Positions 4,151 to 51,700 of a stretch of DNA of 64,000 bases are shown here, piece by piece. Each line of letters starts with the position of its first letter. The first letter of the stretch is position 1. This DNA comes from Liolophura sinensis (taxonomy: Eukaryota > Mollusca > Polyplacophora > Chitonida > Chitonidae). Position numbers and translations under genes: made by a program. The notes under the pieces were generated by a model. The model saw only the letters and a program-made list of their open reading frames with translations, had not been told where the DNA came from and did no database searches. The stretch spans positions 18,633,764 to 18,697,763 of the forward strand of contig NC_088306.1 in the NCBI RefSeq assembly GCF_032854445.1. The letters are read 5' to 3'.

Positions 4151-4582
4151 TTAAATGAAGTCAAATGATTTTTATGTTTTATGTTATGTTATACGACACA
4201 CAGCACACAAATAAGGGGAGAACTTGACACAAAGAAAGCTGGAATCTGAACAATCAAAGCTGGATTTGAACAGCGGAGCTGCATTTAAACTGTATTGGCC
4301 AAAAAAGCCTATGAAAAACTGTTAGCTCATAATTGTCCGGATCGGTACATATTTAATTTGTGGCATACCGGAAGTGTATTTAAGTAACTTTTAAATCTCT
4401 GTGTGTGTTCCATTGCATCAATGCTATGGATTATTTAACATTTTGTGTACATTCGGAATTTGGAAATACAGATAAGTGTAGTCACGAGTGGTCATTACCT
4501 CAAGTAGGCTTATTACGACTTATAACGACCAGTTGTATCACAGCGATTGCCCATTATCATATATAATAGGGGCATGAAGTCT

Positions 4583-4880
4583 AATTTTTCTGTCTCTGTA
4601 TGACATCGAGGAGTCATTCGGTGTGGGTTCATATACTGTCTTCTTGTAGCAGGACGAGTCCATGACGCCAAAGTGCTGCTCCCACTGAAGTATCATGCCG
4701 AAGACACCAGATATGACACCCCACCCAGTCACATTATACTGACACCGGGCCAACCCATCATGTTTCCTTGCTTTAAGATCTCAGTGCTGCTAGGCAGCAG
4801 CAACAGCCATTTTCAAAGTCTTTGGTATGATCCGGCCCGGGTCTCCCGACTCAGAGGCGGACGCTCTAACCTCATAACTA
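4583..4880 (-). mobile_element. SINE-B element, near full length
   Basis: Second interspersed family of the window (SINE-B here). It is recognised by the motifs gccgaagacaccagatatga and acattatactgacaccgggc. On the minus strand its 5' end reads like a tRNA A-box region (GGTTAGAGCGTCCGCCTC). In unit B only the last part remains (17896-17950), so most of the element was deleted there. Confidence 0.75.
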
Positions 4881-5609
4881 CTGTCACTCATTCTACCGAT
4901 AATAATACACCGTGATAAAATATGAAATAAACTTAAAAATATGTTTTATCACCGTGAGTCAAAATATTAGCCTAGGACACATATGACTGCAACCATGAAC
5001 AGGATGAATATCGCAAAACAGATGCAAGCTATTGACAATACCAGTAGGACATATAAACAGAGAGAAATTATTGAAATACTGTTTTTACAGTAACCGTATT
5101 TTTACATTTTCCATCGTTAATTGTTTTGGTTTTTTTGTGGGAGGGGGGGGGGGTGGGTGGGTGGTACAATGGTAAATGGTAAAATTGCGTAAAATTGTCA
5201 GTTTACCTGTGTGAAAGAAGAATATATTTGCATGTTTACGGCAGTATAGCAGTTACTGATTCTTATACATTTCAATGCTGAGAGATACGGAAGTAAAGAA
5301 CAAAAGAGCGTAGTACGCCACGCTTTCTCTATGTGATTCCTCATTTACGCACTCTTATACACTGGTGCTTATAATCACGGAAACAGCCGATCTCATGTTT
5401 TAATTTATAGACCTTTGTGCCGCAATGCATTCTGATAATTTAAGAAATAATGGATTGGTTTATGCATATATGCTGGGAAGCGGACTAGCCCGCTGCATAA
5501 GGACTAGACAAAAAATCCCTTGTTTCTGTTTTAACACATACAAAATATAGCACATTTTTTAAGTTGTAGCATTTTTCATTAATTCCTTTCCACCAAGGTT
5601 TCATTTCAA

Positions 5610-5825
5610 AAGAGAAGCGGTCATCAGTTTTCAGTGATGTTGAACAAACGCCGGGAATGTCCCAGGAGAATGAATGAAATGAGTTTCCAAATCGTGTGTC
5701 ATGCTTGTGAATTGTCGATAATTAAAATATGTATCTCAGTTGCGCTTTGATTGCAACTGTTCATATATCAAGTATGGCGATCTAAGTCAACACGATATCT
5801 ATACAACCCCTAGTCATGGGGTAAC
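5610..5825 (+). repeat. ~200-bp internal repeat R1, copy 2
   Basis: Diverged copy of 3950-4150, sharing agaagcgg, the gttgaacaaacgccggg-type middle, the ttgcaactgttcatata stretch and the cacgatatctatacaaccc end. Confidence 0.65.
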
Positions 5826-6089
5826 CGGAATTAGACACATTTATGAAGCTCAGTGCCAAGGGGTTCATTTTTACTTACAGCAGAGTTATACTCATTGTAA
5901 AACGTAAGAAGCCTAGGGAGTGGGTGTTTGATGAAATAACCTAGGCACACTAGTTTTTGCACTAATGACCTTGATTTAAATAGTCACATAACACACAGGA
6001 TCTAACAAGTGCTACAATGTGAGACATATTACATGTTTTGATACATTGCTGTTCAGGTAATAACCCAGTCAAAGGACTCATTTCCATGT

Positions 6090-6892
6090 TCCTCACAGTC
6101 AAGCTTTTAACAACAATTGCCGGACTCACTTCCATACGTCTCACACCCCAGGTCCCAACGACTGTAATTGTCGGATTCACTTCCATATTTCTCACGGCCC
6201 AGGTTTCAACATCTGTAATTGCCAGATTCACTTCCATATTTCTCACGGCCCAGGTTTCAACATCTGTAATTGCCAGATTCACTTCCATATTTCTGACAGC
6301 CCAGGTTTCAACATCTGATACAGTAATTGACAGACTCGCTTCCATATTTCTCACAGCCCAGGTTTCAACATCTGTAATTGCTGGATTAACTTCCGTATTT
6401 CTGACAGCCCAGGTTTCAACATCCGTAATTGCCGGGTTCATTTCCATATTTCTGACAGCCCAGGTTTCAACATCTGACACAGTAATTGACAGACTCACTT
6501 TCATATTTCTCACAGCCCAGGTTTCAACAACTGTAATTGCCGGATTCACTTCCATATTTCTGACAGCCCAGGCTTCAACATCCGTAATTGCCGGATTCAT
6601 TTCCATATTTCTGACAGCCCAGGTTTCAACATCTGATACAGTAATTGACAGACTCACTTCCATATTTCTCACAGCCCAGGTTCCAACAACTGCGATTGCC
6701 GGATTCACTTCCATATTTCTGACAGCCCAGGTTTCAACATCCGTAATTGCCGGATTCACTTCCATATTTCTGACAGCCCAGGTTTCAACATCTGATACTG
6801 TAATTGACAGACTCACTTCCATATTTCTCACAGCCCAGGTTCCAACAACTGCGATTGCCGGATTCACTTCCATACTTCTCCCAACCCAGGTT
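6090..6892. repeat. 51/57-bp compound minisatellite, unit A
   Basis: About fifteen units alternating between 51 and 57 bp, each with acttccatatttctcacagc followed by ccaggtttcaacatctg and a spacer. Both unit lengths are multiples of three and stop-free, so long frames run on both strands (5962-6873 minus, 6038-7033 plus) and translate as 17- and 19-residue repeats ending TWAVRN. Unit B has about seventeen units and an in-array stop. A minisatellite is the simplest reading, and coding is not supported. Confidence 0.9.
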
Positions 6893-7281
6893 CCAACAAC
6901 TGCTATCGGCGGAGTGCCTTTGCACTATAAATTGCAGTTAACATTGCTGCATTTTATTACCAAATTGTGCTTAAACCACGGTGCTAAGGTGCGTGTAATT
7001 TGCGACTTTTTATGCATGTACATGAACAGTTAGAATAAAACCCGAAAGGAGGTAAATTGAAAAGATGCGGTATTTCACCAGTTAGGCTACGTGTGACCAT
7101 TTGCCGGTTATCACACCGTCGCCGCGTCTCTGATTTTTCCCTCTATGCTTTACGTCTTAATTATATTCACTTCCATACTTCTTACAGCTCAGGTTCCATT
7201 AACTGCACATAGCCGAGTTGACTTCCATATTTCTCATAACTGCAATTTTTGACCACACGTTCATATTATTCCTCAACGTCA
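6893..7281. other. Non-coding flank with stray array units
   Basis: No gene. Two isolated degenerate units of the 51/57-bp array lie at about 7168-7245. The block 6925-7180 recurs in diverged form at 29947-30215 beside TLR-C. Confidence 0.6.
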
Positions 7282-7536
7282 ATTTATTTGCTTATTTGAA
7301 TCGTGTTTTACACCGCAGTCAAGAATATTTCACTTATACGCCAGCGGCCAGCATTATGGTGGGAGGAAACGGAGAAAGGGCCCAGGGGAAACCCACGACC
7401 TTCCGTAGGTTGGTGTGAGGCCTACCCACTTAAGACCAGATAGGAAGCCAGCATGAGCTGGACGAACTCACAGCGACCGTATTGGTAAGAGACTCCTGTG
7501 TCATTACGCTGGGCTAGCGCGCTAACCAACTAAGCT
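7282..7536 (-). mobile_element. SINE-A copy, near full length
   Basis: Antisense SINE-A. It runs from its TTTATTT tail through the cggccagcattatggtggga core to the tRNA-derived head (gctagcgcgctaaccaacta). It is shared with unit B (20440-20694), so it is older than the duplication. Confidence 0.88.
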
Positions 7537-7825
7537 TCATACATTTAACATGGGCCAGCATGAACTCAGGGTATGACATTGATGAGAATCTTCTGGATCT
7601 TTGCGTCACGCTATTCACCAGGCCACGGAGCCCTCCGCCACCCAGCCAAGATTTAAAGGAGCAGAAAGAAAATGATGCAAATATTTGATGATGGAGCGTG
7701 AAAAGTTATTTGCAAATGTAGTGATTATTATTATGTAGTTTCGTTTTTTTTTCTGTCAGGGAAAAAGGGTATTTGAAACTATATTTGTATGGTGTGTATT
7801 TGGGACCAACTCTTGGTATATTCAT

Positions 7826-7872
7826 TTAGATGATGGGTGTTTTACGCCGTCCTCAAAAACATTTCACTCAAT
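7826..7872 (-). mobile_element. SINE-A tail fragment
   Basis: Short antisense 3' end (gggtgttttacgccgtcctc and following). It is also present in unit B at 20981-21028. Confidence 0.55.
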
Positions 7873-8374
7873 AGACCAAATTTTAGGACAAATCAGCAAT
7901 TTCTGCTATATGAAATCGACATTGTGTACGACATAAAATTTTTATACTGCCGGGTAAAAGCTTCTTTGTCGTCGTTGGACGGTTATAAATTGTTGTAATC
8001 TATGCACCAATGAAAATCTCTCCACATTTGTTCAGTAATCAGGCTTGTAGTACGACGTCTCTTGTCTGTTATTTACGGACCTCCTCCAACCCCTCCTGCG
8101 CCTTCTATGTGAATCATACTGCACTAACAGGCAGAATGGGGCTTGCGATTTACCCCCACTTTATGGCAGCTGTGACATGCCATTAGTACATAATTCTCAG
8201 ATAATTTTATAATCACGTTATTTCTACCAAAACTCAGCTCGGTATAAGTCACTTGCATAAATTTTATTTGTAATTTCATATAAACTGTTTATTCAATGTC
8301 GGATTTAATATAATTTTAAAGATTATATCCTTTCATTAAATTGTCACACTTGGTGGCCTTGTGGTTGGGGGTTC

Positions 8375-8457
8375 GCATTATTGGCGCTTGCTACTTGTGT
8401 CCGCATTATTGGCGCTTGCTACTTGTATCCGCATTATTGGCGCTTGCTACTTGTGAC
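8375..8457 (+). repeat. 28-bp repeat, three copies
   Basis: Three nearly identical tandem copies containing gcattattggcgcttgctac. The same three copies are in unit B (21528-21610). Confidence 0.85.
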
Positions 8458-8544
8458 ATGTTTGGGACGTCATTGACATAATGCTGAATATGCAGTTTTC
8501 CCAAGTGATGGTACATGTACGTTAATACATACGAGACAACGTTT

Positions 8545-8645
8545 CTCACCTTGGCGGAACCAGTTCTCACCTGGTGGGACCAGTTCTCACCTCAGTTCTC
8601 ACCTGGGAGGAACCAGTTCTCACCTGGGTGAAAGCAGTTCCCATT
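8545..8645 (+). repeat. Short tandem repeat, ccagttctcacctggg-type
   Basis: Four to five degenerate units around ccagttctcacctgggagga, shared with unit B (about 21710-21805). It lies in otherwise anonymous sequence (7873-9040) in which I see no gene. Confidence 0.7.
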
Positions 8646-9040
8646 TGGGTGGAAATCTGTGTGCTTGGAGAATGCCTAACCCCAACATTCCCCAAGAACC
8701 CGCTGCACCCAGAGCAGCGCCTTTGCAGCTGAGCCATCGAGGGCTCGTTGTCTTTGATTTTCTGTAGAGTCAAGGTTTTCCTAGATCTGTAAAAAAATTT
8801 TTTTTTTAGGGTGTCTGTCTTTGATAAATTATCATCAGTGTTGTTCTTAATTGATGATGATTATTAATGATTATTGGTGCTTCGTTGCCTTATGAATTAA
8901 TGCAGTAGAATACGTATTTAGAAAGCATCTCTCCAACAGTATTATAATTTCCGGTTTGTGTCGTTCTGCTTGTTACTTTGATTAACTACAATGAATCCGT
9001 AGGAGGTATTGTTTGAGCAATAATATTTATACGTGTGTAT

Positions 9041-12352: not shown

Positions 12353-12766
12353 CTGTAGATCAGCGTGCCGTGACCTCCAATAGATGACTGTTGATTAGCC
12401 TGTTATATGACCTCGAGCAGTCTATCGCGATCAGCGCGCCATGACCTCCTGCAAACGGGTATGTATAGATTAGCGTGCCATTCCCTCCAGCAAACGGGTG
12501 TGTATAGATTAGCGTGCCATGACCTCCAGCAAACCGTGTGTATAGATTAGCGTGCCATTACCTCCAGAAAACGGGTGTGTATAGATTAGCGTGCCAGTAC
12601 CTCCAGCAAACGGGTGTGTATAGATTAGCGTGCCAGTACCTCCAGCAAACGGGTGTATATAGATTAGTGTGCCATGACCACCAGCAGACGACTGTAGATC
12701 AGACTGTTTCTATGACCTCCAGCAGACAACTGCAGATCAGCGTGCCATGACCTCCAGCAAACGGTT
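12353..12766. repeat. 39-bp minisatellite at the TLR-B 3' end
   Basis: Counterpart of 345-792, with one or two fewer units and a few one-base indels. It begins within the last TLR-B codons and carries repeated copies of the receptor's terminal codons and stop on the minus strand. Confidence 0.9.
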
Positions 12767-15178
12767 CCAGAAGATCCGTTCGTCACCCGGGTCATTGGCC
12801 GGCCACAGCAGAATGTAATGTGATTCCAAAGGTTCAGCAGCGACCGTGGCATTTCCGACACGGGAATCTCTTCCATCAAGATCACAATAATGGCGTTTTC
12901 ATAACCATCTCTCACCATGCGCATGCCCGTCATTGAATTTCAAATTCACACAATCGCTTTTCAGGAACGACTTGTTGATGACTAGGATAACTTTGCGACT
13001 GTTGTTCACGGCGTCCACTATGTTTTGCTGAATACTGACACCCACCGGGAAGTCTCGATCATGGAGACAGATCGTGTAGTTGTTTTCATCTTCCAGAAAT
13101 TGTCGCAGAACAATGCAAGCCCATCGGTAACTGAAGTAATTATACGCCACGAAGGCATCGTATCGGTATTGTTCATTTGTCACTTCTTCAACGACAGAAC
13201 CTCTCCTGCATTTTGTCAGAACCCAATATTTGATATTCCATCTGTAACGGTAGGCAAATATTCCTAGAACAATTACCACGGCCATCAGACCCGAGCCAAC
13301 TGTGGAAAATGTCAACCAAAAGTTGCTGACACAAGATACTTCCATGTTCTTAAGCTTTGATTTGAGGCTACCAATATCCACGAACGTTCCATTTCCTAGA
13401 CTGCACGTTAATGTCAAACGTGCTTCAACATTGGCAGAACCTTCTACAAGCCATCGCACAAAACTGACGGTGTTACAAGTGCAGAGGAGGGGGTTACGGT
13501 TCAGTGAAACTCTGACAGCATCTTTTGAGTGGGATGAATTGTCAGCGGTCAACCAGTCCATTTGTGCGCGTGACAAAGATGAAATCACATTGGATGACAA
13601 GTCCAAGAATGTCAACGAGACCAAATCATAGATGGACTCTGGTATATGGATCAGCTTATTGTTTGACAGGATCAAAGTTTCTAAACTTTGCAGCGGGCTG
13701 AAGATGAATCTGTTTAGTGTTGTAAAATCGTTACCCGAGAGATCGAGGTTTTTCAGATGTTTCAAATTTGTGAAGATAACAGCATCCAAATCATAGCGAA
13801 AGCCAATGTCCAGTCTACAATTTCTGGCCACCAAAACCTGAAGTGAGGTAAAATAGCTGAAGAATCTTGGAGATAACACAGCACAGTTCCATTTGGATAT
13901 GTTCAGCACTTTCAAGTTCTCCAGACCGGATACGACAAAGGAACAACCATTGAATCCGTCATATGACAGATCAAGAACTTCCACATTTTTTCCATTAGTA
14001 AAGTTTACATCCTTATCACTTCTAATCGAACCGGCTAGAAAACTAGCGTTCAAAACTACCAAAGATGGCGGCACCACCAGATTTAATTGAAAAACAGAGG
14101 TCTCCGTCAACACAAGATCGCTGTCCTCTGTCACACTAAACGCATAATCTCTTCCTGGACTGATATTTAAATACTTTAACCTTGTGAAGCGTATCACGCC
14201 AATTGCTGCTAAGAAGCTAGTAGCGACGGGCAGATAATTGTTTCCAAAGTTAAATGTTTCTAGACATTCGGGGTACTGGAATCGGCTTAAGACGTCTATT
14301 CCCACATGGATTATGGCATTTTTGCTCAAGTCCAGGTGACGAACACAAATAGTCGCCAAGTGAGCCGTGTTGTTTGCAGTGAGAGCCAAGGTTCCTGGGT
14401 CCCTGCTGAACCCTTTGTCAGAATTTGTATTTGTGATTGTCAGATATGTCATATGGCGATGGCGCAGGTCCACAAGAGCTGATAGGGCACTGGGTAGCGA
14501 TTTTGTTCTCAGATTTAGACTTGTCACGTGCGGAAAATGCTTCAAAGTCCCTTCCTCTAAACTCTGGCATCTCAACACCAATGACTGAATTGATAAGTTG
14601 GCAAACGCAGCAAATGTGTCTGGTCTGAGGCTGCTTCCAAATTCCCAACAGTAAACGGACAGACTTTTAAGCTGAGACATGCTCATGACGCCCGGTCCAA
14701 ATGAAACATTGTGCAACGGCTCGTCAACAGTCAACTCCTTCAGTGATATCAGGCTGCTGAATATCTCGTCTGGAAACTGATACGCACGGGATGAATAGCC
14801 AGGGCTATTTTTATGCATATTTAGGATCTCTAGCTTTTGTGTAGGATGAAATACTGTGGGTGGATAGGATTCATACACCAGCACAAATCGGTTGTTGCTT
14901 AGATCCAGGAAGCGTAGTTGTGATAATCCCTCGAACGCTGATGGTTCTAACCTCACAAGTTTGTTGTGATTTAAACTCAGTGATATAAGCCTGCTGAGAA
15001 TTCGAAAGGATCCATTGGTTATGGTCTCCAGAAGATTCCAACTCAAATCCAGGCTTTCTGTTGTTGATGAGATATTTGTAGGTACGGTCCGCAGTCCTTT
15101 GTTGTGGAGATCAACATGGTTGTCCCCATACACCGCGCTAAGAAGAACGGTTCCCAACAGAAATGCGTACACTTCCAT
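12737..15178 (-). pseudogene. Toll-like receptor with frameshifted TIR (TLR-B)
   Basis: Close paralogue of TLR-A, with about twenty amino-acid differences by eye over the shared frame. Signal peptide, LRRs, LRRCT, transmembrane helix and the first half of the TIR (YDAFVAY, LHDRDFPVG) are intact. Relative to TLR-A, single bases are missing near 12951, 12933 and 12811, each in a short run of the same base. The first two shift the frame after NKSFLKSD, giving an early stop at about 12899 and a 759-aa product without the C-terminal TIR half and the FW box. It could be a recent pseudogene or, since all three are run-length errors, an intact gene with assembly mistakes. The TATA-like box is kept at 15468-15475. 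Confidence 0.85.
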
Positions 15179-15467
15179 AGTTGTTTTGGGTGCTAAGGGA
15201 AAAGTTGGCAGTGTTTCTACAAGGAGATGGAGTCGTTTAGCCGTTAGACGCCTGGGTAGATCTGCAGATTGTCTACTTCATGTACTATATGGTCTCTACA
15301 AATAACACTGGCTGTAAATTTGAAATGTTTGTACAAGCGTTACACATCCTTCAACTAGGCAGTAACTCGTCAGTGACTCACCGACATACAGCTGTGTGTT
15401 GTCATATACACGATCAAGTGTGTTCCCTAAATACCTCATAATGAGATAGTACTAGAATGACCCTCTT

Positions 15468-15475
15468 TATTTATA
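15468..15475 (-). promoter_or_regulatory. TATA-like box upstream of TLR-B
   Basis: TATAAATA on the minus strand, about 290 bp upstream of the start codon, in the same place as in TLR-A. Confidence 0.4.
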
Positions 15476-15556
15476 TCTGACAGAGGAATGACGTGTGTGA
15501 TTTTATGTGGTTATATGTTAAAGGTGGTGACAAATCAGCATTTCGAGCAATTTTAG

Positions 15557-15671
15557 ATTGATTTATTTATTTATTTATTTGATTAATGTTTTACGCCGTA
15601 CTCAAGAATAATTCACTTATACGACGGCGGCCAGCATTATGGTAGGTGGAAACCGGGCACAGCCCACGGGA
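15557..15671 (-). mobile_element. SINE-A fragment, unit B copy
   Basis: Same fragment and position as 3587-3693 of unit A. Confidence 0.8.
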
Positions 15672-15768
15672 ACTGCGTCGAAACAGGCATTCATATATCA
15701 GCCGTCAAAAAAGATGAAGGTTTAACAAACGCGACATGGATTCTGCATTCGGAGTGTCTTTTCTTTTG

Positions 15769-17160
15769 GACTGACCCTGTTGACGTCGCACACAGAACCA
15801 TTCACCTGCAAATCATGTCAATGGCAGTTATAGTGTGAGGGTGTGTGAAAGCCCATGTGCTTTCGTATTTTATTTATATATTCGTCGACGAAAGGCAGTC
15901 GGTAAAATGCCGCGACTGACTGCTGCCGACCGAAATATCGCCATTGGTCGTCTTCAAGCCGGAGAAAGTTTTGGTACTATTGCACGACACCTAAATGTTC
16001 ACAAAACAACGATATCCCGGCTTTGGAGCCGTTACAACAACTTTAATTCGACCAACGATCGCCCGAGAAGTGGAAGGCCAAGAATCATGACCCCACTTCA
16101 AAATCGGTACATCCGGGTCCTTCACCTGCGTAATCGGCATGCCCTACCAACCGTGACTACCACACAAATACACAAATAGGTTTGAGGAGAGTGTCGGCTC
16201 AAACGATTAGGAACCGTCTGAAAGAAGCGGGTTTACGTGCCTGTAGACCAGTTGTTGGACGTGTACTACGCCCCTTACATCGACGCCTACGACTCAGGTG
16301 GTGCAACAACGTAAGGATATGAACTTTACAAAACTGGAGGCGCATCTGGTTTTCTGATGAATCCCGTTTTCTTTTGACACGTCACGACGGAAGACAGCGT
16401 GTGTATAGGAGACGTCATGAACGCTTTGCGCCCATCTGCGTCCGGCAGGTGGACAGATTTGGCGGAGGTAGTGTTATGGTTTGGGAGCCATCACGTACAA
16501 CCAGAAATCAGACTTGGTGATCGTTCCAGGGAACCTGACAGCCCAACGTTACATCAACCAAGTCTTACAGCCTCACCCTCTCCCGATTATTGACCGACAG
16601 ACACAGCTTTTTCAACAGGACAAAGCCAGGCGTCATACTGCACGTGCAACAATGAACTTTCTGCAGGATTCCAACGTCAATGTCTTGCCGTGACCCTCTA
16701 AATCACCAGACCTCAACCCTATTGAACACCTGTGGGATACTCTTGATCGACACGTGCGTCAACGTCAGCCACCGCCACAGACGCTTCAACAGCTCGCCGT
16801 TGCGTTACAGGAGGAGTGGAGGGCCATTCCCCAAGAGAGAATTATGGCGTCTTATCCGTTCTTGTCCAAGGAGATGCCGTGCAGTGATTGCAGCTCGTGG
16901 TGGTCATACGAGATACTGAGGAAGACTGAGGAAGGTGAGCAACTGGTGTCTGTGAGATGACTTTTGAAAAGACAGTTTTTAAACATGACCATCTTGATTA
17001 TTATTCTGCCAAATTTCTGACTTCTGTCTTCAATAAGAAAAAAGTTGTGCCGTCCTAAAACTAAATATTAAAATCTCTAAAATACGGGGGTTGCGTTTCT
17101 TTTTGACAGAGTTTAGTTCGTTTCACAGTCTTCGTATGCCTGCCGTAAACCAAGAAGAAC
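15769..17160 (+). mobile_element. Decayed Tc1/mariner-type (DD34E) DNA transposon
   Basis: Unit A and B sequences part after gtcttttcttttgg and rejoin near 17270. The block carries a broken Tc1-like transposase. The right end reads, on the minus strand, CTGTCAAAAAGAAACGCAAC, a plausible terminal inverted repeat, but I find no matching left copy, so the left end is probably lost. Unit A lacks the block but is itself rearranged there, so whether A never had it or lost it is open. Confidence 0.8.
15907..16919 (+). pseudogene. Tc1-like transposase pseudogene
   Basis: Cut-and-paste transposase of the Tc1/mariner superfamily. The start ATG at 15907 begins MPRLTAADRNIAIGRLQAGE, a paired helix-turn-helix DNA-binding part (SFGTIARHLNVHKTTISRLW) with an AT-hook-like RPRSGRPR. 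The catalytic core has IWFSDESRF (first D), FQQDKARRHTA (second D) and SPDLNPIEHLW (E), with 34 residues between the last two, hence DD34E. The full span is about 337 codons, normal for the family. It is disrupted by a frameshift after residue ~90 (stop at 16177-16179), another shift in the middle, a stop at 16691-16693 where the family usually has Trp, and a shift near the end. Not functional as read. Confidence 0.92.
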
Positions 17161-19120
17161 GCTCCAGGTCAATAATCGTAAGGCCAATTCCCCAAACCAC
17201 ATATAACACAAATCACCAAAGATGTAAGGGAATATATAAAGTATGAAATAAGACCGGAATCATGCAAAGAGAAGCGGAGAACAGTTTTTAATGTTTGAAA
17301 GACGCAAGACATGTTTTTGACGAATGAGTGAAATCGGTGTTCAAATCGTGTACCATTATAAAAAATGTATCATAGATGAGATTTGATTGCGACTGTTCAT
17401 ACATTCAACATGGTTATCGAATTCAACACGATGAATATACAGCCCCTACCCTCTATGGACTTAAATGAAGTCAAATGATTTTTATAATTTTATGTTATGT
17501 TATACGACACACAGCACACAAATAAGGGGAGAACTTGACACAAAGAAAGCTGGAATCTGAACAATCAAAGCTGGATTTGAACAGCGGAGCTGCATTTAAA
17601 CTATATTGTCAAAAAAGCCTATGAAAGACTATAAGCTCATAATTGTCCGGATCGGTACATATTTAATTTGTGGCATACCGGAAGTGTATTTAAGTAACTT
17701 TTAAATCTCTGTGTGTGTTTCATTGCATTGATGCTATGGATTATTTAACATTTTGTGTACATTAGGAATTTATAATTACAGATAAGTGTAGTCACGAGTG
17801 GTCATTACCTTAAGTAGGCTTATTACGACTTATAAGGACCAATTGTATCACAGCGATTGCCCATTATCATATATAATAGGGGCATAAAGTCTAATGAGTC
17901 TCCCGACTCAGAGGCGGACGCTCTAACCTCATAACTACTGTAATTCATTCTACCGATAATAATATACCGTGATAAAATATGAAATAAACTTAAAAATATG
18001 TTAGCCTAGGACACATATGACTGCAACCATGAACAGGATGAATATCGCAAAACAGATGCAAGCTATTGATAATACCAGTAGGACATATAAACAGAGAGAA
18101 ATTATTGAAATACTGTTTTTACAGTAACCGTATTTTTACATTTTCCATCGTTAATTGTTTTGGGGTTTTTTTTGGGGGGGGGGGGGGGGGCTACAATGGT
18201 AAATGGTAAAATTGCGTAAAATTGTCAGTTTACCTGTGTGAAAGAAGAATATATTTGCATGTTTACGGCAGTATAACAGTTACTGATTCTTATACATTTC
18301 AATGCTGAGAGTTACGGAGGTATTTGTGATTTAGAAATAACAAAAAAAGTAAAGAACAAAAGAGCGTAGTACGCCACGCTCTCTCTATATGATTCCTCAT
18401 GTACGCACTCTTATACACTGGTGCTTATAATCACGGAAACAGCCGATCTCATGTTTTAATTTATAGACCTTTGTGCCGCAATGCATTCTGATAATTTAAG
18501 AAATAATGGATTGGTTTATGCATATATGCTGGGAAGCGGACTAGCCCGCTGCATAAGGACTAGACAAAAAATCCCTTGTTTCTGTTTTAACACATACAAA
18601 ATATAGCACATTTTTTAAGTTGTAGCATTTTTCATTAATTCCTTTCCACCAAGGTTTCATTTCAAAAGAGAAGCGGTCATCAGTTTTCAGTGATGTTGAA
18701 CGAACGCCGGGAATGTCCCAGGAGAATGAATGAAATGAGTTTCCAAATCGTGTGTCATGCTTGTGAATTGTCGATAATTAAAATATGTATCTCAGTTGCG
18801 CTTTGATTGCAACTGTTCATATATCAAGTATGGCGATCTAAGTCAACACGATATCTATACAACCCCTAGTCATGGGGTAACCGGAATTAGACACATTTAT
18901 GAAGCTCAGTGCCAAGGGGTTCATTTTTACTTACAGCAGAGTTATACTCATTGTAAAACGTAAGAAGCCTAGGGAGTGGGTGTTTGATGAAATAACCTAG
19001 GCACACTAGTTTTTGCACTAATGACGTTGATTTAAATAGTCACATAACACACAGGATCTAACAAATGCTACAATGTGAGATATATTACATGCTTTGATAC
19101 ATTGCTGTTCAGGTAATAAC
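17161..19120. other. Non-coding part of unit B
   Basis: Matches unit A 3945-6085. It contains the two R1 copies (17270-17455 and 18668-18872), a SINE-B remnant (17896-17950) and a G-run of about 17 near 18174-18190. The segment 17161-17270 is absent from A but has a relative beside TLR-C. No gene seen. Confidence 0.6.
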
Positions 19121-19123
19121 CCA

Positions 19124-20060
19124 GTCAAAGGACTCATTTCCATGTTCCTCACAGTCAAGCTTTTAACAACAATTGCCGGACTCACTTCCATACGTCTCAC
19201 ACCCCAGGTCCCAACGACTGTAATTGTCGGATTCACTTCCATATTTCTCACGGCCCAGGTTTCAACATCTGTAATTGCCAGATTCTCTTCCATATTTCTC
19301 ACAGCCCAGGTTTCAACATCTGTAATTGCCAGATTCACTTCCATATTTCTGACAGCCCAGGTTTCAACATCTGATACAGTAATTGACAGACTCACTTCCA
19401 TATTTCTCACAGCCCAGGTTTCAACATCTGTAATTGCTGGATTCACTTCCGTATTTCTGACAGCCCAGGTTTCAACATCCGTAATTGCCAGATTCACTTC
19501 CATATTTCTGACAGCCCAGGTTTCAACATCTGATACAGTAATTGACAGACTCACTTCCATATTTCTCACAGCCCAGGTTTCAACATCTGTAATTGCCGGA
19601 TTCACTTCCGTATTTCTGACAGCCCAGGTTTCAACATCCGTAATTGCCGGGTTCATTTCCATATTTCTGACAGCCCAGGTTTCAACATTTGATACAGTAA
19701 TTGACAGACTCACTTTCATATTTCTCACAGCCCAGGTTTCAACAACTGTAATTGCCGGATTCACTTAAATATTTCTGACAGCCCAGGCTTCAACATCCGT
19801 AATTGCCGGATTCATTTCCATATTTCTGACAGCCCAGGTTTCAACATCTGATACAGTAATTGACAGACTCACTTCCATATTTCTCACAGCCCAGGTTCCA
19901 ACAACTGCGATTGCCGGATTCACTTCCATATTTCTGACAGCCCAGGTTTCAACATCTGATACTGTAATTGACAGACTCACTTCCATATTTCTCACAGCCC
20001 AGGTTCCAACAACTGCGATTGCCGGATTCACATCCATACTTCTCCCAACCCAGGTTCCAA
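19124..20060. repeat. 51/57-bp compound minisatellite, unit B
   Basis: About seventeen units, two more than in A, from expansion of a 57-51-51 block. The minus-strand frame is broken by a stop at about 19765-19770, where a unit reads cacttaaat instead of cacttccat. This argues against a protein. Confidence 0.9.
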
Positions 20061-20439
20061 CAACTGCTATCGGCGGAGTCCCTTTGCACTATAAATTGCA
20101 GTTAACATTGCTGCATTTTATTACCAAATTGTGCTTAAACCACGGTGCTAAGGGGCGTGTAATTTGCTACTATTTATGCATGTACATGAACAGTTAGAAT
20201 AAAACCCGAAAGGAGGTAAATTGAAAAGATGCCGTATTTCACCAGTTAGGTTACGTGTGACCATTTGCCGGCTATCACACCGTTCTCTGATTTTTCCCTC
20301 TATGCTTTACGTCTTAATTATATTCACTTCCATACTTCTTACAGCTCAGGTTCCATCAACTGCACATAGCCGAGTTGACTTCCATATTTCTCATAACTGC
20401 AATTTTTGACCACACGTTCATATTATTCCTCAACGTCAA
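20061..20439. other. Non-coding flank, unit B
   Basis: Same as 6893-7281 of unit A, including stray degenerate array units near 20322-20400. No gene. Confidence 0.55.
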
Positions 20440-20694
20440 TTTATTTGCTTATTTGAATCGTGTTTTACACCGCAGTCAAGAATATTTCACTTATACGCCA
20501 GCGGCCAGCATTATGGTGGGAGGAAACGGAGAAAGGGCCCAGGGGGAACCCACGACCTTCCGTAGGTTGCTGTGAGGCCTACCCACTTAAGACCAGATAG
20601 GAAGCCAGCATGAGCTGGACGAACTCACAGCGACCGTATTGTTAAGAGACTCCTGTGTCATTACGCTGGGCTACCGCGCTAACCAACGGAGCTT
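20440..20694 (-). mobile_element. SINE-A copy, unit B
   Basis: Duplicate of 7282-7536. Confidence 0.88.
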
Positions 20695-20980
20695 CATACA
20701 TTTAACATGGGCCAGCATGAACTCAGGGTATGACATTGATGAGAAGCTCCTGGATCTTTGCGTCACGCTATCCACCAGGCCACGGAGCCCTCCGCCACCC
20801 AGCCAAGGTTTAAAGGAGCAGAAAGAAAATGATGCAAATATTTGATGATGGAGCGTGAAAAGTTATTTGCAAATGTAGTGATTATTATTATGTAGTTTCG
20901 ATTTTTTTCTGTCAGGGGAAAAGGGTATTTGAAACTATATTTGTATGGTGTGTATTTGGGACCAACTCTTGGTATATTCA

Positions 20981-21028
20981 TTTAGATGATGGGTGTTTTA
21001 CGCCGTCCTCAAAAACATTTCACTCAAT
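20981..21028 (-). mobile_element. SINE-A tail fragment, unit B
   Basis: Duplicate of 7826-7872. The sequence from here to 22200 matches unit A and holds no gene. Confidence 0.55.
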
Positions 21029-21527
21029 AGACCAAATTTTAGGACAAATCAGCAATTTCTGCTATATGAAATCGACTTTATGTACGACATAAAATTTTTA
21101 TACTGCCGGGAAAAAGCTTCTTTGTCGTCGTTGGACGGTTATAAATTGTTGTAATCTATGCGCCAATGAAAATGTCTCCACATTCGTTCAATAATCAGGC
21201 TTGTAGTACGACGTCTCTTGTCTGTTCTTTACTGACCTCCTCCAACCCCTCCTGCGCCTTCTATATGAATCATACTGCACTACCAGGCAGAATGGGGCTG
21301 GCGATTTACCCCCACTTTATGGCAGCTGTGACATGCCATTAGTACATAATTCTCAGATAATTTTACAATCACGTTATTTCTACCAAAACTCAGCTCGGTA
21401 TAAGTCACTTGCATAAATTTTATTTGTAATTTCATATAAACTGTTTATTCAATGTCGGATTTAATATAATTTTAAAGATTATATCCTTTCATTAAATTGT
21501 CACACGTGTGGCCTTGTGGTTGGGGGT

Positions 21528-21610
21528 TCGCATTATTGGCGCTTGCTACTTGTGTCCGCATTATTGGCGCTTGCTACTTGTATCCGCATTATTGGCGCTT
21601 GCTACTTGTG
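21528..21610 (+). repeat. 28-bp repeat, three copies, unit B
   Basis: Duplicate of 8375-8457 with the same three copies. Confidence 0.85.
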
Positions 21611-22262
21611 ACATGTTTGGGACCTCATTGACATAATGCTGAATATGCAGTTTTCCCAAGTGATGATACATGTACGTTAATACTTGAGCGACGTACGAGA
21701 CAACATTTCTCACCTTGGCGGAACCAGTTCTCACCTGGTGGGACCAGTTCTCACCTCAGTTCTCAACTGGGAGGAACCAGTTCTCACCTGGGTGAAAGCA
21801 GTTCCCATTTGGGTGGAAATCTGTGTGCTTGGAGAATGCCTAACCCCAACATTCCCCAAGAACCCGCTGCACCCAGAGCAGCGCCTTTGCAACTGAGCCT
21901 TCGAGGGCTCGTTGTCTTTGATTTTCTATAGAGTCAAGGTTTTCCTAGATCTGTAAAAAAATTGTTTTATTAGAGTGTCTGTCTTTGATAAATTATCATC
22001 AGTGTTGTTCTTAATTGATGATGATTATTAATGATTATTGGTGCTTCGTTGCCTTATGAATTAATGCAGTAGAATACGTATTTAGAAAGCATCTCTCCAA
22101 CAGTATTATAATTTCCGGTTTGTGTCGTTCTGCTTGTTACTTTGATTAACTACAATGAATCCGTAGGAGGTATTGTTTGAGCAATAATATTTATACCGTG
22201 TGTATTGACTGACTGATTGGTTGAATGGTATTTCACGCCGCGTTTAAAAATATTTCACTTAA

Positions 22263-27043: not shown

Positions 27044-29435
27044 ATGGAAGTGTGCACTTTTGTAATGGGGATTGTTATCTTTCATGCGGCGAACGGGGCG
27101 AACCATGTTGATCTCAACAACAAAGGACTGACGGTCGTAGCTACAAATATTCCAACAACAACAGAAAGCCTAGATTTGAGTTGGAATCTTCTGGAGACGA
27201 TGAATCAATGGAATTCTAACTTGTGAGGTTAGAACCATCAGCGTTCGAGGGATTATCACAACTACGCTTCCTGGATCTAGGCAACAACCGATTTGTGCTG
27301 GTGTATGAATCCTATCCACCCACAGTATTTCATCCTACACAAAAGCTAGAGATCCTAAATATGGCTAAAAATAGCCCTGGCTATTCATCCCGTGCGTATC
27401 AGTTTCCAGACGAGATATTCAGCAGCCTGATATCACTGAAGGAGTTGACTGTTGACGAGCCGTTGCACAATGTTTCATTTGGACCGGGCGTCATGAGCAT
27501 GTCTCAGCTTAAAAGTCTGTCCGTTTACTGTTGGGAATTTGGAAGCAGCCTCAGACCAGACACATTTGCTGCGTTTGCCAACTTATCAATTCAGTCATTG
27601 GTGTTGAGATGCCAGAGTTTAGAGGAAGGGACTTTGAAGCATTTTCCGCATGTGACAAGTCTAAATCTGAGAACAAAATCACTACCCAACGCCCTATCAG
27701 CTCTTGTGGACCTGCGCCATCGCCATATGACATATCTGACAATCACAAATACAAATTCTGACAAAGGGTTCAGCAGGGACCCAGGAACCTTGGCTCTCAC
27801 TGCAAACAACACGGCTCACTTGGCGACTATTTGTGTTCGTCACCTGGACTTGAGCAAAAATGCCATAATCCATGTGGGAATAGATGTCTTAAGCCGATTC
27901 CAGTACCCCGAGTGTCTAGAAACATTTAACTTTGGAAACAATTATCTGCCCGTCGCTACTAGCTACTTAGCAGCAATTGGCATGATACACTTCACAAGGT
28001 TAAAGTATTTAGATATCAGTCCAGGAAGAGATTATGCGTTTACTGTCACAGAGGACAGCGATCTTGTGTTGACGGAGACCTCTGTTTTTCAATTAAATCT
28101 GGTGGTGCCGCCATCTTTGGTAGTTTTGAACGCTAGTTTTCTAGCCGGTTCGGTTACAGGTGCGCAGGATGTAAACTTTACTAATGGAAAAAAGTTCTTG
28201 ATGTGTCATACGACGGTCAATACGTCAGTGGTTGTTCCTTTGTCGTATCCGGTCTGGAGAACTGTGCTGAACATATACAAATGGAACCGTGCTGTGTTAT
28301 CTCCAAGATTCTTCAGCTATTTTACCTCACTTCAGGTTTTGGTGGCCAGAAATTGTAGACTGAACACTGGCTTTCGCTATGATTTGGATGCTGTTATCTT
28401 CACAAATTTGAACATCTGAAATCCCTCGATCTCTCGAGTAACGATTTTACAACACTAAGCAGATTCATCTTCAGCCCGCTGCAAAGTTTAGAAACCTTGA
28501 TGCTGTCAAACAATAAGCTGATCCATATACCAGAGTTCATCTATGATTTGGTCTCGTTGACATTCTTGGACTTGTCATCCAATGTGATTTCATCTTGTCA
28601 CGCGCACAAATGGACTGGTTGACCGCTGACAATTTATCCCCCTAAAAAGATGTCAGAGTTTCACTGAACCGTAACCCCCTCCTCTGCACTTGTAACACCG
28701 TCAGTTTTGTGCGATGGCTTGTAGAAAGCTCTGCCAATGTTGAAGCACGTTTGACATTAACGTGCAGCCGAGGAAATGGAACGTTCGTGGATATTGGTAG
28801 CCTCAAATCAAAGCTTAAGAACATGGAAGTATCTTGTGTCAGCAACTTTTGGTTGACATTTTCCACAGTTGGCTCGAGTCTGATGGCCGTGGTAATTGTT
28901 CTAGGAATATTTGCCTACCGCTACAGATTGAATATCAAATATTGGGCTCTGTCAAAATGCAGGAGAGGTTCTGTCGTTGAAGAAGTGACAAACGAACCGA
29001 TACCGAGACGATGCCTTCGTAGCGTATAATTACTTCAGTTACCAATGGGCTTGCATTGTTCTGCGACAATTTCTGGAAGATGAAAACAACTACACGATCT
29101 GTCTCCATGATCGAGACTTCCCGGTGGGTGTCAGTATTCAGCAAAACATAGTGGACGCCGTGAACAACAGTCGCAAAGTTATCCTAGTCATCAACAAGTC
29201 GTTCCTGAAAAGCGATTGGTGTGAATTTGAAATTCAAATGACGGGCATGCGCATGGTGAGAGATGGTTATGAAAACGCCATTATTGTGATCATGATGGAA
29301 GAGATTCCCGTGTCGGAAATGCCACGGTCGCTGCTGAACCTTTGGAATCACATTACATTCCTGCTGTGGCCGGGCAATGACCCGGGTGACGAACGGATCT
29401 TCTGGAACCGTTTGCTGGAGGTCATGGCACGCTGA
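27044..29435 (+). pseudogene. Third Toll-like receptor, mosaic pseudogene (TLR-C)
   Basis: Same architecture as TLR-A/B, on the opposite strand: signal peptide (MEVCTFVMGIVIFHAANG), LRRs, LRRCT (around 28675), transmembrane region (around 28855-28925) and TIR ending EVMAR at 29433-29435. It is broken by deletions near 27200 (stop at 27224), a patch of offsetting shifts at 28190-28270, a lost base before 28417 (stop), further indels with a stop near 28640, and a shift at about 29000 just before the TIR. Codons 1-53 differ from TLR-A at about 17 positions, while the next hundred differ at very few. Residue choices (for example VLVYES, DVLSRF, RWLVE) put it nearer TLR-B. It lacks the conserved upstream block, so it is probably also promoterless. 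Confidence 0.92.
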
Positions 29436-29832
29436 TCTATACACACCAGTTTGCAGGAGGTCATGGGACGCTGATCTGCGGTTGTATGCTGAAGGTAATG
29501 ACACGTCGATCTATACACACCGGTTTGCTGGATGTTATGGCACACTACTCTATACACACCGGTTTGCTGGGGGTCATCGCACGCTAATCTATACACAGCC
29601 GTTTGCTGGAGGTCATAGCACTCTAATCTATACAAACCCCTTTTGCTGGAGGTCATGGCACGTTTATCTATACACACTCGTTTGCTGGAGGTCATGGCAC
29701 TGTAATCTATACACACCCGTTTGCTGGAGGTAATGACACGCTAATCTATACACAGCCGTTTGCTGGAGGTCATGGCACGTTGGTCTATATACACCCGTTT
29801 TCTGGAGGTCATGGCACGCTAATCTATACACG
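29407..29832 (+). repeat. 39-bp minisatellite at the TLR-C 3' end
   Basis: About eleven units of the TLR 3' array, here on the plus strand and starting within the last TLR-C codons. It is bounded on the right by sequence that lies upstream of TLR-A (tgacagaggaatgac at about 29852). Confidence 0.9.
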
Positions 29833-45720: not shown

Positions 45721-48700
45721 ATGTTCCCCAGGGACAGAGCACGTGACGTGGACCGCGGCTGGGCCTGGCTTGTTATGCCAGCGGCAATCCTCGCTCAAAT
45801 CATCATTGCCGTGTTGTTGTATAGCTTAGGCGTCATACAGATCGTCCTGCTAGACACGTTCGATGAGGGACTGGTGAAAACATCCTGGGTACTCAGTATC
45901 ACTTCCTGTCTCCTCAGTCTACCAGGTAACACGGATTAACTTAGCCATACGCTTAATACATATCTTCTTCTTTCTGTTATTGGAGTGGATTGTACCTCTA
46001 CAGCTCCATGGAGATAATTAATGATAGTGACTTAATGAACTTCAATAGACTACATCAGGCAGTTTGGATTGGCTTAATTTTAGATTGATCTTTACAAAGA
46101 TACAAGATAATCGGTTATTCATCTCCAAACAAATTTAATTCTAAAACCGAGAAACATTTGTTGGAAAAATGTTTAAATAATTTCTGCTTCGAGCACTGAC
46201 GGGGTTTTATTTCTGCGGCCGAGTCGTTAGCGAGCTAGTGCAACACAATGATTCAGGAGCCTCTCACCAATGTGGTCATCGTGAGTTCTAGTCCAGCTCA
46301 TGTTGGCCTCCTCTCTGTTAGTATGTGGGAAGGTCTGATAACGGCCTTCTACACCATAGTGAGTGAGTGAGTGAGTGTTTGGGGTTTAACGTGATACTTA
46401 ACAATTTTTCAGTCACGAAGGAGACCTCAGACACACCATAGTGCTTGCTCTGTCGTATAAATGAAATATTATTGTGACGTAAATCATCAATGTAATAAAT
46501 AGATAAATCCAATTAGTATACTACCACGATAACTACCAGAGATACATCACCTGAATACGTTTTCCTGCATATGGGCATAACGTTGTCTTTGTTTCAAAGG
46601 TGGACTGAGCTATTGTTTTCTTTCAATAAGGGATGTGCACTTCTGTATCATTTCTGAATCCGTCTTGATTGTGTGAACATGGAAAGGTCTTGCAGCAACC
46701 TGCGGATGGTTAGTGGGTTTCAACGGGGCTATTGTCCTGTTTCTTCTGACCACAATGCTGGCCGCCGTCGTATAAGTGAAATATTCTTGAGTACGGCGGT
46801 AATTAATTTCATGCTTTCTTAGCTCTTTGGTAGTTTGTTTTGAGCGTTGTTTTGTGAATTGGCCTTGCAACTATTGACGTGGAACGTCAACTTTGGTTGA
46901 CAATATACCATAATGTCTGTTTCGAAGCTTACATAACCTGGCCTACCGATAAACGTCCAGGCAAAGACAGGAGCAAAAGTCTTTTTTATATGCATTAAAG
47001 ACAATCCCTGGAATGCCATCTTAGATGGATGGTTGCCGTCGTATAGGTGAAATATTCTAGAGTACGGTGTAAACACCAATCAAATAAATAAATACCGTTA
47101 CCGTTGTAGGTCCGTTCATTGGATTCTTGACAAACATGACCAGCTGTAGAACGACCATGATGCTCGGCAGCCTCCTCATCTTCATGGGCTGTACATCCAG
47201 TGCATTTGTCACAAGACTGGACCACCTGTACGTCACTCTCTCCCTAATGACAGGTGAGGAAATCAGCAGAAACCAAGGGGAACATTAATCTAAAACATCA
47301 CTTTCTCCTTAATGACAGGTTAGATAGAAACCAGAAACCAAAGGGAAGATTGATTTAAAATATCACTTTCTCCTTAATGGCAGGTGATGTAGTCAGCAGA
47401 AACCTACGGAACCCTTAATCTAAAACATCACACTGTACTTAATCACAGGTGGTGTACTGAGCAGAAACCAAGGTGAACATTAATCTAAAACATCACTCTC
47501 TCTATAGTGTCAGCGTAAACCTGCGAAAGCTTTAATGTAAAACATCACACTGTACTTAATCACAGGTGGGGTACTGAGCAGAAACCAAGCTGAACATTAA
47601 CCTAAAATATCACTCTCTCCTAAATGACAGGTGAGGTAGTCAGCAGAAACCTACAGAAGCCTCCTAATCTAAAACATCACACTGTCCTTATTCATACGTA
47701 GGGTACTGAGTAGAAACCAAGGTGAACATTAATCTAAAACATCACTCTCTCCATAATGACAGGTGATGTAGTCAGCAGGAACCCACGGAAGCATTAATCT
47801 AAAACATCACACTGTCCTTAATCACAGGTGGGGCACTGAGCAGAAACCAAGCTGAAGATTAATCTAAAACATCACTCTCTCCTTAGTGATAGGTGAGGTA
47901 GTCAGCAGAAACCCACGGAAGCATTAATTTAAAACATCACATTGTCCTGAATCACAGGTGGGGTACTGAACAGAAACCAAGGTGAACATTAATCTAAAAC
48001 ATCACTCTCTCTATAATGTCAGCGTAAACCTGCGAAAGCTTTAATGTAAAACATCACACTCTCCTTAATGGCAGGTGGTGTGCTGAGCAGAAACCAAGGT
48101 GAACATTAACCTAAAATATCACTCTCTCCTAAATGACAGGTGAGGTAGTCAGCAGAAACCTGCGAAAGCTTTAATGTAAAACATCACACTTTCCTTAATC
48201 ACAGGTGGGTTACTGAACAGAAACCAAGGTGAACATTAATCTAAAACATCACTCCCTCTATAATGTCAGCGTAAACCTGCAAAAGCTTTAATGTAAAACA
48301 TCACACTGTGCTTAATGGCAGGTGGGGTACTGAGCAGAAACCAAGGTGAACATTAATCTAAAACATCACTCTCTCTATAATGTCAACGTAAACCTGCGAA
48401 AGCGTTAATGTAAAACATCACACTGTTCTTAATCACAGGTGGGGTACTGAGCAGAAACCAAGGTGAACATTAATCTAAAACATCACTCTCTCTACAATGT
48501 CAGCGTAAACCTGCAAAAGCTTTAATGTAAAACATCACACTGTCCTTAATGGCAGGTGGGGTACTGAGCAGAAACCAAGGTGAACATTAATCTAAAACAT
48601 CACTCTCTCTACAATGTCAGCGTAAACCTGCGAAAGCTTTAATGTAAAACATCACACTGTCCTTAATGGCAGGTGGGGTACTGAGCAGAAACCAAGGTGA

Positions 48701-51700
48701 AGTTTAATCTAAAACATCACTCTCTCCTTAGTGATAGGTGAGGTAGTCAGCAGAAACCTTGGGGAAGATCAATCTAAAACATCACTCTCTCCTTAGTGAC
48801 AGGTGAAATAGTCAGCAGAAACCAAGGTGAACATTAATCTAAAACATCACACTGTGCTCAATGATAGGTGAGGTAGTCAGCAGAAACCTACAGAAGCCTA
48901 ATCTAAAACATCACACTGTCCTTAATCACAGGTGGGGTACTGAGCAGAAACTAAGGGGAACATTAATCTAAAATATCACTCTCTCCATAATGACAGGTGA
49001 GGTAGTCAGCAGAAACCTTGGGGAAGATCAATCTAAAACATCACTCTCTCCTTAGTGACAGGTGAAATAGTCAGCAGAAACCAAGGTGAACATTAATCTA
49101 AAACATCACACTGTGCTCAATGACAGGTGAGGAAGTCAGCAGAAACCTACAGAAGCCTAATCTAAAACTTCACACTGTCCTTAATCACAGGTGGGGTACT
49201 GAGCAGAAACCAAGGGAAACCTTAATCTAAAACTTCACACTGCCCTTAATAACATGTGGTGCACTGAGCAGAAACCAAGCTGAACATTGATCTAAAACTT
49301 CACACTGACCTTAATCACAGGTGGGGTACTGAGCAGAAACCAAGGTGAACATTAATCTAAAACATCACTCTCTCCTTAATGACAGGTGAGGTACTCAGTA
49401 GAAATCCACGGGAGCCTTAATCTAAAACATCACACTGTGTTCAATGACAGGTGCGGTAGCCTCCAGAAACCCACGGGCTTGATAGCCTAGAACATCACCA
49501 TGTCCTTATTGTCAGCTATGTAGAGAACAATTTTCAAAGACCTTTTAATCTAAAGCCTCACCCCTGTCCTTAATGTTAGCTAAGGTGAGTGAAAAGCTCA
49601 CATTCCTCTTGGTCCAAATGATCTCTGAAGGTGACATTTTATTATTATGACGTCACACATTCGATACCAAAAAAACGGGGCATGAAAACCAGAGCACTCA
49701 TTACTGAAGTCTCGTTTTCGACAAAAGATTGTAATCAATACCACTTTAAATTTGTACGTCTTCATTGAAAATGGAATTTATCTGTTTTGCAGGCATGGGT
49801 GCGAGCATGGTATATACACCTTGCCTGGTGGTTATAGGGTTTTACTTCGACAAGTATCTGAGCGTGTCCATTGCTTTAGTTGTCACGGGTGGAGGAATTG
49901 GTATGGTAGCTGGGGCTCCACTAATTGGATTCTTCGAGAATGTTTTCGGCTGGCGTGGGATGTTTATGATGTTGGCTGGGATTAGCGCCAATCTGATTCT
50001 CTCCGCCATGATCTGCCGACCGAATAGCGTGGAGAGGTCCCATTGGGGAAATCGTGCTGATGATTCCGACCCTTCAGGAGCCCTCAAGGAGAAACCATCT
50101 CTGGATGACCCTCCTTCTGCGCCGGGGTCTCGCTGGAAGAAAACGATCAAAACTTCTCTGAAAGTCGTTCTTAGCGTGCCTATGCTTTTGTTTTGTAGCA
50201 GTATTTTTCTGTGGAGTATAACCATATCATTGGTGAACCTGTATTTACCCAGCTACGTGGTGTTCAACGGAGCCACCATGACACAGTCTGCCCTTCTCTT
50301 CACCGTCATGGGCGTCTGTAACATTGTCTCGCGACTTCTCGCGGGATTTACCGTGGCCTTCGTGGACAAGTTTGTTTTATACTCTGCTTCCTTTGCCGTA
50401 ATGGCCGTGTTGGTGACAGGGTTTCCCTTCATTCCTCCCACTTTCACAATGTCCATGGCATTTGCGGGTTTAATGGGACTGTGCACTGGAGGACCTTACG
50501 TAGTGTTGACGTCAATGACGAAAGAGTTGGCCGGACTGGCGCACCTTGCCACAGCCTTTGGCATCGAAATGATGGTATCGGGAACTGGCTCCTTGATAGG
50601 ACCTCCTGTGGCAGGTAAAAATCCCAAGGCTCTATTTGCATTTGTTGTCTTCTTGCATACCGTTATGGTTTTTAAGAATCACTTGGCAGCAGCCTCTGTA
50701 TGGCAAGGCTTTGTTTCCATTTTGTCCAGTCATACTACTGACTGCGATGTTTTGAGTGAAAAAGTGGCGTGTATGACGTTAAACGAGACATATATAATAA
50801 TCCAGTACGTGGGAAGGTCTGACAGCAACCTGCGGATGGTCCTGGGTCTCTGCCCGGTTTCCTCCCACCATAATGCTGGCCGCCGTCGTATAAGTGAAAT
50901 ATTCTTGAGTACGGCGTAAAACACCAATCAAATAAATATAATAATCCATTATTTCTCTTTAGTCACAATCATTTTTTTTTGGTGTATTTCAGCTCTCTTG
51001 GCTGAGTCCTCTGGGTCTTACCTGTGCAGCTTTTTGTTTGCAGGTAAGTTAAAGACGTATCATAATGACAGCGCAGGACACACAATGGCCATGTGCATTG
51101 AGCAAAATGAGATGGTGTGTTAATAGGTTCTATTACTGTTGCCTTAAAACTGAAGTGTTACCTTTAACACTGTAAAGACCACGAGGAGTGACTGCTTTTT
51201 TAAACTCCGTTTGAAGTGGCGATTTAAAGAGTTGGAATGTGAATGTGTCGCACTTCGGCTAGTGTTAAAACATTAACACTTTATAGATGTGCAGTCACTC
51301 CTAATGATCTTTATAGTGTTAAAGGTAACACTTTAGTTTTGAGAGTGTTGTGTTTGCGCTGGCATTGACGAAGTCAGTAGGACGTGTCTGAATCCACTGG
51401 CCGCCATGTTGCCTGGTATTATCTATCAGGAAACTTTTCAGAGATTTAGTTTTCTGTCCGACATGGGCCGACTCGTCCCCAGGACCGCCTTGAGGAAATG
51501 AACTTGGGGTTGTGTATTTGAATCCAGCTCTTTCTACCTGGTTTGGTATTTTAGGTCAGGAGCTTTTCCAGGTACCTGTGAGTTTCTATATCAGGCACTG
51601 CTCGATTTCTTTATCCAATAATGGAATGGTATCAGCGAAATATTCTTTAGTACTCCCACACCAACAAAATCCCAACCAAGTAGAAAAGTTTCCCCGGACT

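Follow-up and report, generated by a model that had tools for sequence, protein, structure and literature searches.

What is the function, if any, of an intron that repeats the end of its own upstream exon dozens of times? The 64,000 nt of the chiton Liolophura sinensis analysed here (contig NC_088306.1 of assembly GCF_032854445.1, positions 18,633,764 to 18,697,763; referred to as the window, with all positions below counted from its first nucleotide) contain an SLC16-like transporter gene, whose intron 2 is for the most part an array of about 37 copies of the gene's own exon end together with its splice site. The original prediction saw in these copies an array of candidate recursive (ratchet) splice sites, through which the intron could be removed stepwise. 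According to our analysis, it is likely that the array is a minisatellite of the mirage type described for amphioxus, which would have been seeded at the end of exon 2 and whose copies bear no clear sign of being kept as step-by-step splice sites.

The transporter gene and the array in its second intron

The gene is predicted to encode an MFS protein by exons at about 45721-45925, 47110-47253, 49793-50614, 50993-51043 and from 52461. Its identity as an SLC16/monocarboxylate-transporter-like gene follows from a Pfam MFS_1 match (E 4.7e-34), and in a comparison with the PDB exons 2-4 matched monocarboxylate transporters, the best being MCT2 (E 6.9e-20). Since the exon 2/3 junction lies inside an alignment to MCT2 that has no gap around it, the donor between 47253 and 47254 and the acceptor at 49792 are credible for intron 2, which accordingly measures 2,539 nt (47254-49792). 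The exons of interest are:

45721 to 45925, plus strand: coding part of exon 1 from the first likely ATG (putative start), with the donor CAG/GTAACA at 45925
47110 to 47253, plus strand: exon 2, with the donor CAG/GTGAGG; the exon-derived part of the array has its first copy in the 21 nt at the 3' end of this exon (47233-47253)
49793 to 50614, plus strand: exon 3; the authentic acceptor of intron 2 ends at 49792, has an acceptor score of 7.86 and lies outside the array

The array does not begin in the intron but within the final 21 nt of exon 2, in agreement with the proposed derivation from the pyrimidine-rich exon end. Tandem Repeats Finder (TRF) reports it at 47233-49458 with a period of 130 and a score of 2447, together with shorter rows of period 65 and further rows up to 49575. 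When cuts were placed at the TCAC that opens each copy, 38 segments were obtained: the exon copy (u00, consisting of 21 nt of exon 2 end and 44 nt of intron), 29 intronic units of full length (64-67 bp), six units of 52 bp and two decayed segments at the 3' end. The predicted tandem array of about 37 units of about 65 bp is confirmed. Recognisable units stop near 49557-49578, and the remainder of the intron (49579-49792) is mostly non-array sequence. The parts of the array are:

47233 to 49557, plus strand: tandem array spanning the boundary of exon 2 and intron 2, 37 segments (u00, 29 units of 64-67 bp, six of 52 bp and the decayed 63-bp u36)
49558 to 49619, plus strand: the last, strongly decayed segment u37, which holds AAG/GTGAGT at 49584
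48301 to 48651, plus strand: three 117-bp pairs, each of a 65-bp unit and a 52-bp unit without AG/GT; neighbouring pairs are identical at 110/117 and 113/117 positions
48717 to 49234, plus strand: duplicated four-unit block of 259 bp (48717-48975 versus 48976-49234), 248/259 identical

The six 52-bp units, which start at 47493, 48002, 48249, 48366, 48483 and 48600, have a 13-bp deletion in common that takes out AG/GT. They read CAG/CGTAAA (five units) or CAA/CGTAAA (one unit) at this place and therefore contain no donor there. This class of units spread in the array despite the loss of AG/GT, which speaks for a minisatellite of the mirage type. The best identity between units is 0.80 for the first intronic one (u01), 0.75 for u35, 0.67 for u36 and u37 and 0.89-1.0 for the other intronic ones. 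The 259-bp block, the 117-bp pairs and the decayed 3' end all look typical of tandem turnover.

Among the units, a group A (11 units) and a group B (15 units) differ by their majority letters at the unit positions 5, 8 and 17 of the exon-derived part, where no difference is fixed. In the reading frame of the exon, all three fall on third codon positions, for which the chance of three out of three is 2.6%, calculated post hoc. Coding drift as the reason why the two groups diverged is not claimed, the differences existing at the level of majorities only.

Splice-site content of the units and its conservation

Splice sites were scored with approximate position weight matrices, and a site was regarded as dual if it reached at least 4 bits both as donor and as acceptor. 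AG/GT is present at the unit position of 28 of the 38 segments and a bare GT of 30. With the exon 2 end counted, 25 of the 38 unit sites are dual (10.5 per kb). Outside the array, i.e. with 47225-49600 excluded, this applies to 25/226 AGGT sites on the plus strand and 17/198 on the minus strand (0.41 and 0.28 per kb). As a sequence design, the proposed fusion of an acceptor to a donor with no exon between them holds. The claim that a donor GTGAGG occurs at six or more sites including the real one was also correct, CAG/GTGAGG being found exactly six times, while AGGTGAGG was counted nine times. What was too general is the statement that each unit possesses a branch point, a pyrimidine tract, CAG and a donor. 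Many units do, but AG/GT is restricted to the 28 segments mentioned above, exact CTCTCTCC occurs ten times and CTAAAAC 23 times, and the six 52-bp units are without a donor. The candidate branch-point places in the array are the TAATCTAAAAC segments.

The large number of dual sites has to be seen in the light of their common source. The real exon 2 end, i.e. the seed, scores 11.3 bits as donor (11.34) and 8.2 bits as acceptor, and it encodes a pyrimidine-rich transmembrane stretch (V-T-L-S-L-M-T-G). Because of this pyrimidine-rich exon end, the copies are both donor-like and acceptor-like by inheritance. Three of the four donor sites of the gene itself also exceed 8 bits as acceptor, probably owing to exon ends that encode hydrophobic, T/C-rich stretches; as donors, the four reach 7.1-12.7 bits, and the acceptors of the gene score 2.9, 7.9, 11.0 and 11.2 bits. 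When random 65-mers of the window, taken outside the 11 larger array regions and possibly including smaller TRF loci, were tandemised, a dual site appeared in 358 of 16,996 (2.1%), and a donor of at least 11 bits together with an acceptor of at least 8 bits in eight (0.05%). The seed is therefore unusual, and the dual copies are one seed amplified. Since all of them were inherited from the exon 2 end, they do not count as independent evidence.

Scoring of the splice sites unit by unit, which had been suggested beforehand as a check, has a mixed outcome. The dual character of 25 of the 38 unit sites speaks for the original prediction, but the acceptors are middling and mostly weaker than the donors: for the 28 AG/GT sites the acceptor median is 6.91 (highest value 9.53) and the donor median 8.77, and the acceptor outscores the donor at 6 sites. 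Intron 2 as a whole contains 38 donor matches of at least 7 bits. The sole match above the real exon 2 donor is AAG/GTGAGT at 49584 (12.2 versus 11.34 bits), which is not among the acceptors of at least 4 bits; this site, 208 nt upstream of exon 3, might be a cryptic donor.

If the copies were kept for splicing, their splice sites should vary less than the rest of the unit. We compared the diversity of each element with that of all 65 circular shifts over 29 of the 38 segments, the exon copy, the six 52-bp units and the two decayed units being omitted. The mean diversity of the unit is 0.187. With a diversity of 0.185, CAG/GTGAGG is as variable as the average (30/65 shifts at or below), and low diversity is likewise not seen for the donor positions +1 to +6 (0.216, 39/65), the positions +3 to +6 (0.324, 57/65) and the pyrimidine tract (0.226, 48/65). 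The donor positions +4 and +5 vary freely among the units. By this test within the array, the whole splice site does not appear to be preferentially conserved.

Some observations nevertheless weigh against a purely passive array. The AG/GT core has a diversity of 0.033 compared with 0.187 overall (6/65 shifts as low), and the branch-like TCTAAAAC one of 0.085 (11/65 shifts as low), so that these two elements might be weakly maintained. Furthermore, none of the 37 other unit-position donors outscores the real donor and five tie with it, which could mean constraint, and in 30 of 37 segments the stretch from the TAAAA element to the unit AG is free of any further AG, as in a working acceptor.

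Origin of the array and rival explanations

The course of events that we consider most plausible begins with a short tandem duplication, which would have taken the terminal 21 nt of exon 2, the donor and the next 44 nt or so of the intron. The array could then have grown by unequal exchange or slippage, followed by homogenisation of the copies. The first copy would have remained the working exon end, so that the protein was left unharmed. The reverse origin, i.e. an exon end made from the array, was rejected on account of the gap-free alignment to MCT2 across the junction, which makes the exon the likely source rather than the product. Removal of intron 2 would most likely proceed mainly in one step from 47253 to 49792. 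Should the spliceosome occasionally splice into an AG/GT of the array and then again from the same point, this would presumably be harmless, because the donor is rebuilt at the same exon end and the same mRNA results. Such a low-level stepwise removal of intron 2 is possible, and its harmlessness may account for the tolerance of an array of this length. Selection for stepwise splicing need not be assumed to explain the array.

It would be a different matter if recursive splicing were the normal route, in which exon 2 is joined to at least one AG/GT of the array, the donor is rebuilt there and the last step ends at 49792. The dual scores, the segments without an intervening AG, the low diversity of the AG/GT core and the fact that the product is identical by any path are all in line with such a route, and human AGGT sites are stated in PMC10809524 to be dual 3.1-fold more often than expected. 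However, the intron is only 2.5 kb long and the steps would mostly measure 65 bp. The acceptor exceeds the donor at just 6 of 28 sites, opposite to what is described for recursive sites of the fly, the whole site shows no apparent excess of conservation, and mirages of amphioxus are reported to leave splicing undisturbed. We therefore consider a recursive route to be very unlikely, and the function proposed in the original prediction is not supported.

Alternative splicing, yielding longer forms of exon 2 or small extra exons, is about as improbable. The original prediction had named alternative exon 2 ends as one outcome, but no open extension of exon 2 was found: with any of the 38 donors of at least 7 bits in intron 2, the extended exon would include a stop codon and thus be non-productive. 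Among 139 possible cassettes (acceptor at least 4 bits, donor at least 7 bits, length 9-300 nt), 10 are open and in frame, and all of these are 24 nt long and would add eight residues. This is, however, very short for an exon, and these micro-exons have weak donors of 7.2-7.6 bits that lack a G at +5. At 47448-47472 and nine similar places, such a stop-free candidate is laid out as an acceptor CAG, 24 nt and then AAG/GTGAAC (nine cases) or AAG/GTGAAG (one case). One might also think of a sink for splicing factors or of a regulated poison region, which lowers the output of the gene via isoforms with a stop codon, as the 38 donor matches would all lead to stops when used as exon 2 ends. Yet a single gene with about 40 sites would have to serve as the sink, the donor positions +4 and +5 are free to vary, and the one 260-nt piece that was folded showed no RNA structure in excess of its shuffled versions (z 0.47). 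We regard this explanation, too, as very unlikely.

Arrays at TLR stop codons and other repeats of the window

Seeding at coding ends might not be confined to the SLC16-like gene. The window (GC content 40.8%) is rich in minisatellites: after the TRF rows had been merged by hand, 29 loci remained, which occupy 15.6% of the bases. Three TLR copies end in RLLEVMAR and a stop codon, and each of them is accompanied by a 39-bp array that starts in the coding end and continues past the stop into the 3' flank, so that its units consist of the coding end (last codons) and the stop region:

417 to 790, minus strand: 39-bp array at TLR copy 1 (RLLEVMAR-stop), of which the first copy falls within the coding end (stop codon at 764-766) and the others lie downstream
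12429 to 12759, minus strand: 39-bp array beside TLR copy 2
29408 to 29831, plus strand: 39-bp array beside TLR copy 3

Pfam detects LRR and TIR in TLR copy 1 and TIR in the part of copy 3 that was searched, whereas copy 2 was recognised by reading of the sequence. Neither copy 2 nor copy 3 lies in a single open frame, the TIR-coding end of copy 2 being split between frames, and both may be remnants. Since the three copies are paralogues, their arrays would represent a single seeding event, to which the SLC16 array would add a second. Altogether, 4 of the 29 merged loci begin within the final 21-28 nt of a coding segment, an observation made post hoc that should be taken as a lead and not as a rate. 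Arrays seeded at coding ends may thus be a wider pattern, of which the TLR cases and the SLC16 array are similar examples.

At about 400-9000 and 12400-22000, separated by 12-13 kb, the same succession of a TLR copy (copies 1 and 2, respectively) and several tandem repeats is seen, likely as the result of a segmental duplication. A 51-bp repeat (17 codons) with long open stretches on both strands is present at 6115-6902 and 19171-20066, about 13 kb apart. There is also a dispersed repeat (about 46750-46800, 47033-47100 and 50880-50940) with a common core (GTCGTATAAGTGAAATATTCTTGAGTACGGCGTAAAACACCAATCAAATAAAT at 50880-50940), which by eye resembles a short interspersed element and of which one copy adjoins the acceptor of intron 1.

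A broader reading would combine these observations: boundary seeding, at a donor or at a stop codon, would be a common mode in this genome, since a duplication across an exon end can grow harmlessly as long as the working end is retained in the first copy, and intron 2 would in addition be removed stepwise on occasion and in a stochastic manner. In this view, a pyrimidine-rich exon end would also turn the array into a set of dual splice sites in occasional use. We regard this combination as rather doubtful. If it were true, intron 2 would be removed by many stochastic paths that all give one mRNA, and changes of its length would be splice-neutral. Stepwise use, if shown, would link the growth of minisatellites, mirages and recursive splicing; otherwise, the array represents a phenomenon already familiar from lancelets, in a long version. 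To judge from the TLR arrays, seeding of this kind may also take place at stop codons. An array of about 37 copies across an exon boundary is also a natural test of how the spliceosome chooses among near-identical donors, and of whether dual AG/GT copies render the growth of an intron harmless.

Comparison with known systems

Recursive sites of Drosophila share with the SLC16 array the fusion of a 3' site to a 5' site at AG/GT and a product that is independent of the path. According to PMC6110457, they are common in introns of more than 40 kb, divide them into segments of 9-15 kb and were identified by junction reads; the study argues that such a site has to win first as an acceptor and finds very strong 3' sites there. 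In the SLC16 array, in contrast, the 3' motif is mostly not stronger than the 5' motif, nor than ordinary acceptors, and an intron of 2,539 nt with a spacing of mostly 65 bp stands against steps of kilobases. A pairing of recursive splicing with a minisatellite was not found in the open-licence literature that we searched.

For human UBC and VCX3A, PMC10809524 describes tandem repeats with dual-specific splice sites and argues that expansion of the repeat is tolerable as it can be spliced out. Here, too, many of the tandem units carry AG/GT and might be used as donor or acceptor, as judged in our case by score. However, the units of UBC are coding and their use has been shown by RNA, whereas the SLC16 units are intronic and, with 65 bp, not a multiple of 3. 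The tandem duplication of a segment with AG/GT is also the basis of the model of intron gain by Rogers (cited in PMC3087553) and of the RdRp case in potato (PMC4974935), but in L. sinensis an existing intron was lengthened and no new intron is seen.

The closest parallel is provided by the mirages of amphioxus, as minisatellites that span exon/intron boundaries were named there. In PMC3087553 they are described for Adh3 and the globin genes BflGb6 and BflGb9, with unit lengths of 10-72 bp in Adh3 and haplotypes of six and three repeat units in BflGb6; PGBD5 and troponin C were added by PMC3902484. AG/GT is found in many, but not all, units of a mirage, the edges of the cluster escape homogenisation, and data from reverse-transcription PCR and on Adh3 suggest that splicing is not interfered with. 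The SLC16 array differs from these examples in that it resides in a transporter gene, comprises 38 segments, includes a class of units with a 13-bp deletion and has similar arrays at TLR stop codons in its surroundings. It resembles them in several features of its sequence: its units include an exon end and the adjoining intron (21 nt and 44 nt), AG/GT is kept in many of them (28 of 38), and concerted evolution in the interior (248/259 identical positions in the 259-bp block) does not extend to the edges (0.80 for u01, 0.67-0.75 for u35-u37). The array thus displays those sequence features of a mirage that were examined here.

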